Source: Fusobacteriota bacterium (GTDB lineage Bacteria > Bacillota > TC1). From it: 64,000 bases of DNA. Below the pieces are notes generated by a model. The model saw only the letters and a program-made list of their open reading frames with translations, was not told the DNA's origin and did not search any database. Below, one piece after another: positions 3,641-4,364 of the stretch (its first letter is position 1; every line of letters starts with the position of its first letter). The position numbers were made by a program, and so were the translations under genes. The stretch lies in NCBI GenBank assembly GCA_009773805.1, contig WTXA01000001.1, forward strand, positions 62,001-126,000, written 5' to 3'.

Positions 3641-3666
3641 TTAAATTAATTATTAGTAATAAGATT

Positions 3667-3698
3667 AAGCAAACATGGTATTCTCCATGTTTGCTTTT
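3667..3698 (+). terminator. Rho-independent terminator after rpsO
   Basis: Perfect 12-bp stem AAGCAAACATGG (3667-3678) and CCATGTTTGCTT (3685-3696), six-base loop, then a short T run. Confidence 0.9.
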
Positions 3699-3699
3699 G

Positions 3700-3728
3700 T
3701 TGTTAGTTATTTCAATTAGTGATATATT
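3700..3728 (+). promoter_or_regulatory. Putative promoter of the selenoprotein redoxin
   Basis: TTGTTA (3700-3705), 17-base spacer, TATATT (3723-3728, 5 of 6). It lies just after the rpsO terminator. The downstream ribosome binding site GAGGTGA is at 3757-3763. Confidence 0.5.
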
Positions 3729-3766
3729 AAGCATAAGAATAACTTTATTAAATTACGAGGTGAGTT

Positions 3767-4228
3767 ATGGCTAGAGTAGAATTGAATCAAAAAGCTCCAG
3801 TTTTTGAAGTAGAAGATTATCTTGGCAATACGATATCCTTGAAATCCTATCTAGGATCATTCCTTGTTTTACTAGTTTTTAACAGAGGTTTTATTTGACC
3901 TTTTTGTCAAAAGCATATGATGCAGTTGCATCAAGATAAAAGTGAGTTTGAAAAAAAAGATACTAAAATTATAATTGTAGGTCCTGAAAACAAACAAACA
4001 TTCAATAAATTCTTTAATAGTAATGGTTATGACTTTATAGGAATACCTGATGCTAAGAACAGCATACTAAAGACTTATGGTCAGGAGATAAATATTTTTA
4101 AATTAGGTAGAATGCCTGCTCAAGTTCTAATTGATAAAGCTGGAATTGCACGCTTTGTCTACTATGGACACTCTATGTCAGACATACCAGAAAATAAAGA
4201 CGTATTAAAGATTATTGATGAAATTTAG
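3767..4228 (+). CDS. Redoxin/peroxiredoxin-like selenoprotein (in-frame UGA read as Sec44)
   Basis: An open frame runs from ATG 3767 (RBS GAGGTGA) through a TGA at 3896-3898 to the stop at 4226-4228. Read through, it gives 153 residues. The sequence around the UGA is F-N-R-G-F-I-U-P-F-C-Q-K-H, matching the AhpC/TSA-family active site 'RGxwCPfC', with UGA exactly at the first (peroxidatic or attacking) cysteine and Cys47 as second thiol. The rest fits a thioredoxin-fold redoxin: N-terminal 'L.q.APvFevedylG.tisL', then K-I-I-I-V-G-P-E-N and a P-A-Q-V-L-I-D-K strand with a cis-Pro candidate. A hairpin 19 bases after the UGA resembles a bacterial SECIS. Gene callers will truncate it to the ATG at 3917, losing the active site. 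The alternative is a recent nonsense mutation. Confidence 0.82.
3918..3933 (+). promoter_or_regulatory. Candidate bacterial SECIS hairpin
   Basis: Six-bp stem TGATGC (3918-3923) and GCATCA (3928-3933) with loop AGTT. The loop begins 25 bases after the UGA and has G as its second base. Both agree with the published bSECIS consensus of a short stem-loop downstream of UGA with a G near the start of the apical loop. It lies inside the coding sequence, as bacterial SECIS elements must. No folding program was run. Confidence 0.6.
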
Positions 4229-4249
4229 TTTTCTTGATAAATTTTTAGT

Positions 4250-4276
4250 AAGGGAGCAGGTTTTGTCTGCTCCCTT
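4250..4276 (+). terminator. Hairpin after the redoxin, probable weak terminator
   Basis: Perfect 10-bp stem AAGGGAGCAG (4250-4259) and CTGCTCCCTT (4267-4276) with a 7-base loop. The following sequence is only moderately U-rich, so termination may be incomplete. Confidence 0.6.
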
Positions 4277-4281
4277 AACTA

Positions 4282-4310
4282 TTGCTTGAAACAATAAAAT
4301 AGGATACAAT
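4282..4310 (+). promoter_or_regulatory. Putative pnp promoter
   Basis: TTGCTT (4282-4287), 17-base spacer, TACAAT (4305-4310, 5 of 6). It leaves a roughly 48-base leader before the GTG start of pnp. Confidence 0.5.
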
Positions 4311-4364
4311 AAAAGGGATTTAAAAAGTAGAAAGAATAGAAGAGAAAGATTTGGAGGAAACCAA

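Follow-up and report, generated by a model that had tools for sequence, protein, structure and literature searches.

A UGA-interrupted Prx-like redoxin gene between rpsO and pnp and its predicted selenocysteine active site

Selenoproteins of the AhpC-TSA family (PF00578) in which a UxxC motif replaces TxxU form a described, computationally predicted class known as 'Prx-like' (PMC1088965). The class has also been named 'Prx-like 1' in the GOS survey (PMC2398784) and 'Prx-like thiol:disulfide oxidoreductase' (PMC13188914, Table 1). Bacterial SECIS hairpins, which follow the selenocysteine (Sec) codon UGA, have been modeled with a loop of 3-9 nt, a stem of 4-16 bp and a G as first or second loop nucleotide, at a spacing of 16-37 nt from the UGA and with an energy at or below -7.5 kcal/mol (PMC13188914). 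A full-text literature search for Anaerolineae selenoproteins and the deep-Sep paper yielded nothing specific. Here we describe a gene that very probably encodes a stand-alone selenoprotein of this Prx-like, thioredoxin-fold class. It lies between rpsO and pnp in a stretch of DNA of 64 kb (the window) that belongs to a genome of 1.68 Mb in four contigs, estimated to be 98.5% complete. Judged by gene order and composition, the phylum of the window is probably Bacillota.

Reading frame and genomic setting

The frame opens at ATG 3767, closes at a TAG (4226-4228) and holds a single in-frame TGA (Table 1). With this TGA read as U, the translation around it is R-G-F-I-U44-P-F-C47. An earlier note on this DNA had described a frame broken by this codon alone, with the redoxin fold kept on both sides of it, and our reading bears this out. 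There is no further lesion, and the full frame, with Cys in place of U, matches Pfam AhpC-TSA over residues 7-129, spanning both sides of the UGA (66.3 bits, E = 3e-18, against a curated cut-off of 26 bits for PF00578). The note had also expected standard gene calling to return a truncated ORF, and a table-11 ORF finder lists exactly such a remnant and nothing more of the gene; the ribosome-binding site that it had proposed is likewise present. The genome gains a clear selenoprotein where standard annotation would give a fragment without the active site.

Table 1. Features of the redoxin locus (positions in the window)
Feature	Position	Strand	Remarks
rpsO intrinsic terminator	3667..3696	+	hairpin between upstream rpsO and the redoxin gene
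Ribosome-binding site GAGGTGA	3757..3763	+	seen in the sequence
Predicted selenoprotein gene	3767..4228	+	153 residues; Prx-like/thioredoxin-fold oxidoreductase (AhpC-TSA, PF00578); Sec is residue 44
In-frame UGA (U44)	3896..3898	+	TGA kept at this column in all intact close orthologues; Cys in five homologues; L142/L141 pair
Cys47 codon	3905..3907	+	no other Cys in the protein; pairs with Sec44 at +3 (UxxC)
Spurious 103-aa ORF	3917..4228	+	table-11 caller output, starting at ATG 3917
Bacterial SECIS hairpin	3918..3933	+	6-bp stem UGAUGC/GCAUCA, loop AGUU (3924-3927), 25 nt after the UGA
Terminator-like hairpin	4249..4277	+	13 bp, weak T tract; 3' of the redoxin gene

The signals around the gene are of unequal standing. 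The downstream hairpin that had been proposed is real, as is that of the rpsO terminator, and terminator-like sites as a whole are far above the shuffled expectation (5 found, 0.2 expected). The promoter that had been assigned to the gene itself was not borne out, with promoter-like sites at chance level (5 found, 6.6 expected). A redoxin between rpsO and pnp had further been thought to be lineage-specific, and this stands for the place but not for the gene. None of the relatives checked shares the location: in them rpsO and pnp lie close together or are split by other genes, and the redoxin is found elsewhere. The gene itself is widespread in Chloroflexota and Desulfobacterota. Within the genus, the rpsO-pnp interval (window 3641-4364; L099-L102) is a variable insertion site, occupied here by the redoxin, in G003 and G004 by a Wzz-like gene and in G001 by further genes, including one Wzz-like and one glycosyltransferase-like gene. 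Among 31 neighbourhoods searched for a conserved operon partner, none was found across clades; clade-local neighbours recur, including alpha/beta hydrolases and others in Anaerolineae.

Selenocysteine machinery and the SECIS hairpin

The UGA at 3896-3898 is almost certainly read as selenocysteine at the redoxin active site. The core claim of the earlier note, Sec at the catalytic position of a redoxin, is upheld by several kinds of sequence evidence: the Sec machinery of the genome, conservation of the TGA, the occurrence of Sec/Cys pairs, covariation in the SECIS hairpin and selection beyond the UGA. The four genes to which the note had pointed are all encoded in the genome, each above its curated cut-off: selA (548 bits), selB (352 bits), selC, the gene for tRNA-Sec (67.7 bits), and selD (351 bits). 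Among the orthologue-bearing genomes tested first, selA was found in 18 of 18. One genome (G756) carries a TGA copy of the redoxin, and a full selA was not seen there; its assembly may be incomplete.

The genome encodes other selenoproteins. In its selD (L035, C2:241798-242727), itself one of them, an in-frame TGA falls close to the N-terminal end (KAAGUASKIG), and a second redoxin selenoprotein, a BCP/PrxU-type peroxiredoxin with a TPGU active site specified by TGA, is encoded at C4:53269-53634 (L002). No other convincing UGA-interrupted gene emerged when the 64-kb window was searched for them. The redoxin orthologue of one Chloroflexi MAG is followed, 2.8 kb downstream, by a SelB-like gene (L004:7677-9617).

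The hairpin behind the UGA agrees with the published SECIS model in its spacing, its stem and its loop, which has G in second position; its energy of -7.3 to -7.5 kcal/mol is borderline against the published threshold. In orthologues the stem covaries and the loop is kept (UGGCGC/GCGCCA, GACGC/GCGUC, UGGCAC/GUGCCA, UCACGC/GCGUGA), and one Chloroflexota clade has an equivalent hairpin, GCGCGC-AGUUG-GCGCGC, shifted to 16 nt. Across 20 aligned sequences we counted 12 double-change cells, compared with 3.4 in shuffles, and slid versions of the pairing did worse. In 64 of 67 Sec genes the UGA is followed by a hairpin whose stem has 4 bp or more. Hairpin loss was seen only in the Cys genes L092, the member with a CxxC site, and L141, and the Cys genes L144 and L145 have a 4-bp hairpin by a loose criterion. 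Shuffling of synonymous codons gave an average z of -1.74 for 42 genes and p = 0.18 for the window gene alone, so the case for a SECIS rests on the family. Rfam, at gathering and at permissive thresholds, returned no credible RNA family at the locus. On binding the AGUU-capped hairpin about 25 nt downstream, SelB would bring Sec-tRNA to the UGA, and the 153-residue protein would be made.

Homologues, residues 44 and 47, and decayed copies

When 84,980 species genomes were searched with the protein, 13 orthologues of 36-58% identity came up, in Chloroflexota and Deltaproteobacteria-type genomes, and all 13 have TGA at the column of residue 44, as do three intact copies from the same genus and two from the same order. 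Once phylum-wide samples had been added (about 30 Chloroflexota, three from the window's own phylum and about 20 Desulfobacterota-type), the intact homologues, from three phyla, comprised 67 with Sec (the window gene and 66 others) and five with Cys. No intact homologue has any other residue at this column, and Trp never occurs there. In the gene tree, the sequences of the window's phylum fall on one branch (support 82) inside a set that mixes all three phyla, which is compatible with old horizontal transfer. The orthologous group so defined has a C-terminal signature, MSDIPEN, and no NCBIfam model passes its cut-off for the group.

Cys homologues at this column, which the earlier note had held to be informative, differ in their second position: L092 has CPFC, L141, L145 and L146 have C..S, and L144 has C..T. 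They include one half of a Sec/Cys pair, L142 and L141, whose proteins are 82% identical and whose surrounding DNA is nearly identical, reading CGGGGATTCGCC-TGA-AAGCAATCC in L142 and CGGGGATTCGCC-TGC-AAGCAATCC in L141. L141 belongs to a Desulfobacterota genome (G791) with five redoxin paralogues (L132, L141, L144, L145 and L146), one with Sec (UPFA) and four with Cys. L092, the sole Cys member with CPFC, comes from a Chloroflexota genome in which selA is in two fragments (G302:C6:30365-31518), through a frameshift or an assembly error; together these suggest Sec-to-Cys conversion with loss of the machinery. More distant Prx-like Sec proteins (L147, L148, L149, L116 and L117) have the motifs REFNUMQC, RHTWUPNC and RGTWUPNC, with in-frame TGA.

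Residue 47 is less constant. Among the 67 Sec genes it is Cys in 58, Ala in six, Thr in two and Ser in one, leaving nine without Cys47. The UxxC redox pair that had been proposed therefore holds in the window protein but is not a constant of the family, given its UxxA, UxxT and UxxS members. The TGA/TGC pair, the hairpin loss in a Cys member and these variants make up a natural series on the roles of Sec and of the second thiol in Prx-like enzymes.

The interrupted frame might instead be explained by a nonsense mutation, a pseudogene or a sequencing error in a Cys redoxin. TGC and TGT are one base from TGA, and decayed relatives exist. L044/L115, from a genome of the same genus (G002), retains the TGA and the greater part of the SECIS but is broken by two in-frame TAG codons, and its MSDIPEN motif is degraded; L090 (G332, Chloroflexota) has the Sec TGA and a later in-frame TAA, as a pseudogene or through a sequencing error; and L138 and L143 are frameshifted copies. 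The earlier note had set out what damage would look like, namely a sense codon in relatives together with other lesions in this copy, and we found the reverse: the relatives, dozens of genomes from three phyla, carry TGA at this very column, and the window copy has no other lesion. Between the window gene and the same-genus copies, the part after the UGA has a dS of about 1.5 or more, or saturated, and a dN of about 0.3, with purifying selection no weaker than before the UGA. Low dN relative to dS past the UGA means that the downstream part has been translated, and a SECIS hairpin and a full set of Sec genes go with it. Mutation or error is refuted by the conservation of the TGA across species, and we consider it very improbable. 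The G002 copy itself is probably a decaying gene, and the redoxin looks dispensable in that lineage, because in-frame TAG codons are present and part of the conserved motif is missing.

Another way to read through the codon would be a general code change, with UGA specifying an amino acid such as Trp, or leaky read-through. TGA is indeed a rare stop in the window, ending four of the 58 ORFs of at least 100 aa. Still, ribF and other genes end in TGA, with the frames beyond them closing within 10 codons; where the column does not hold Sec it holds Cys; and tRNA-Sec, SelA and SelB are present. General reassignment of UGA is ruled out by the TGA-ended genes of the window, and the chance that either explanation holds for this codon is slighter still than that of a mutation.

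Active site, proposed chemistry and known relatives

With Sec as the preferred reading of residue 44, the predicted structure bears on what the protein may do. AlphaFold2, run on the orthologue alignment, gave a mean pLDDT of 93, and Foldseek matched the model to BCP (BCP1), AhpE, AhpC2 and ResA structures with query TM-scores of about 0.77-0.89. In a profile alignment with the solved peroxiredoxins 2ywn and 3drn, Sec44 occupies the column of the Thr in TxxC, and Cys47 that of the peroxidatic Cys; the first Pro is replaced by Arg40 and the catalytic Arg by an invariant Pro117. The canonical peroxiredoxin motif, PxxxTxxC with a catalytic Arg, is thus absent, and the position of Cys47 alone is shared. 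Compared with ResA and thioredoxin, Sec44 presumably takes the place of the first, attacking Cys of CxxC, and Pro117 that of the cis-Pro, so that the site resembles a thioredoxin-like UxxC with a cis-Pro. The proposal that the UGA replaces an attacking Cys accordingly stands in the ResA/thioredoxin-like comparison only; against peroxiredoxins, the residue replaced is a Thr.

The selenoprotein might nevertheless act as a canonical peroxiredoxin of the BCP or AhpE type, with Cys47 peroxidatic and Sec44 as a helper. It has the PF00578 domain, BCP1, AhpE and AhpC2 are among its best structural matches, and Cys47 aligns with the peroxidatic Cys. We find this unlikely: Sec44, Arg40 and Pro117 depart from the peroxiredoxin site as set out above, nine Sec homologues lack Cys47 and carry Ala, Thr or Ser instead, and the genuine Sec peroxiredoxin of the genome is a separate gene.

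A thiol/selenol oxidoreductase or a thiol-dependent selenoperoxidase seems more likely than a canonical peroxiredoxin. Sec44 is most likely the essential nucleophile, because residue 44 is never anything but Sec or Cys, unlike the variable residue 47, and the UxxC pair would be a common but dispensable addition. From its place at the N-terminal end of the active-site helix, opposite Pro117, the Sec44 selenolate may attack an oxidised substrate, which could be a disulfide, a sulfenic acid or a peroxide. Cys47, the window protein's sole Cys, could then act as the resolving residue through an Se-S bond, to be reduced by thioredoxin or another thiol donor of that kind; in members without Cys47, an external thiol would have to resolve instead. 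Taken as a whole, these catalytic details have roughly an even chance of being right. A broader proposal, which we offer tentatively and think somewhat less probable, is that the group is a Sec-first family: catalysis would rest with a single Sec, and the +3 thiol could be dispensed with. Its members would then be monoselenol oxidoreductases or peroxidases, set apart from peroxiredoxins as well as thioredoxins, and the Cys forms would derive from Sec.

The locus can be set against four described groups. ResA/TlpA-type oxidoreductases share a CxxC-like site with the attacking residue first, and the window protein scores 40 bits with the NCBIfam ResA model and matches the structures 4nmu and 3c73 well; it differs in having no evident signal peptide or membrane anchor and in having Sec in place of Cys. 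The PrxU/BCP-type Sec peroxiredoxins (TxxU), one of which is the TPGU protein of this genome, share the fold, but their Sec occupies the peroxidatic position, whereas that of the window protein lies three residues earlier. Within NCBIfam, the window protein scores best with the SelL-related redox protein model NF040769, which also matches all 14 proteins of alignment A1 in the active-site half. At 69.1 bits against a curated cut-off of 120, however, the window protein is not a member by the NCBI rule, and every homologue for which bits were shown is below the cut-off as well; the window protein also lacks UxxU.

By shared domain and motif, the gene is placed among the known Prx-like selenoproteins (PF00578, UxxC), of which WP_010940744.1 is the named representative. 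With the UxxC/UxxU proteins of that class it has in common PF00578, a UxxC site (UPFC here), predicted thioredoxin-like chemistry and a SECIS directly after the UGA, while its orthologous group adds the members with Ala, Thr or Ser in place of the second Cys and the C-terminal MSDIPEN. The gene is genuine, and a rather ordinary representative of an already known class of bacterial selenoproteins that standard gene callers truncate.
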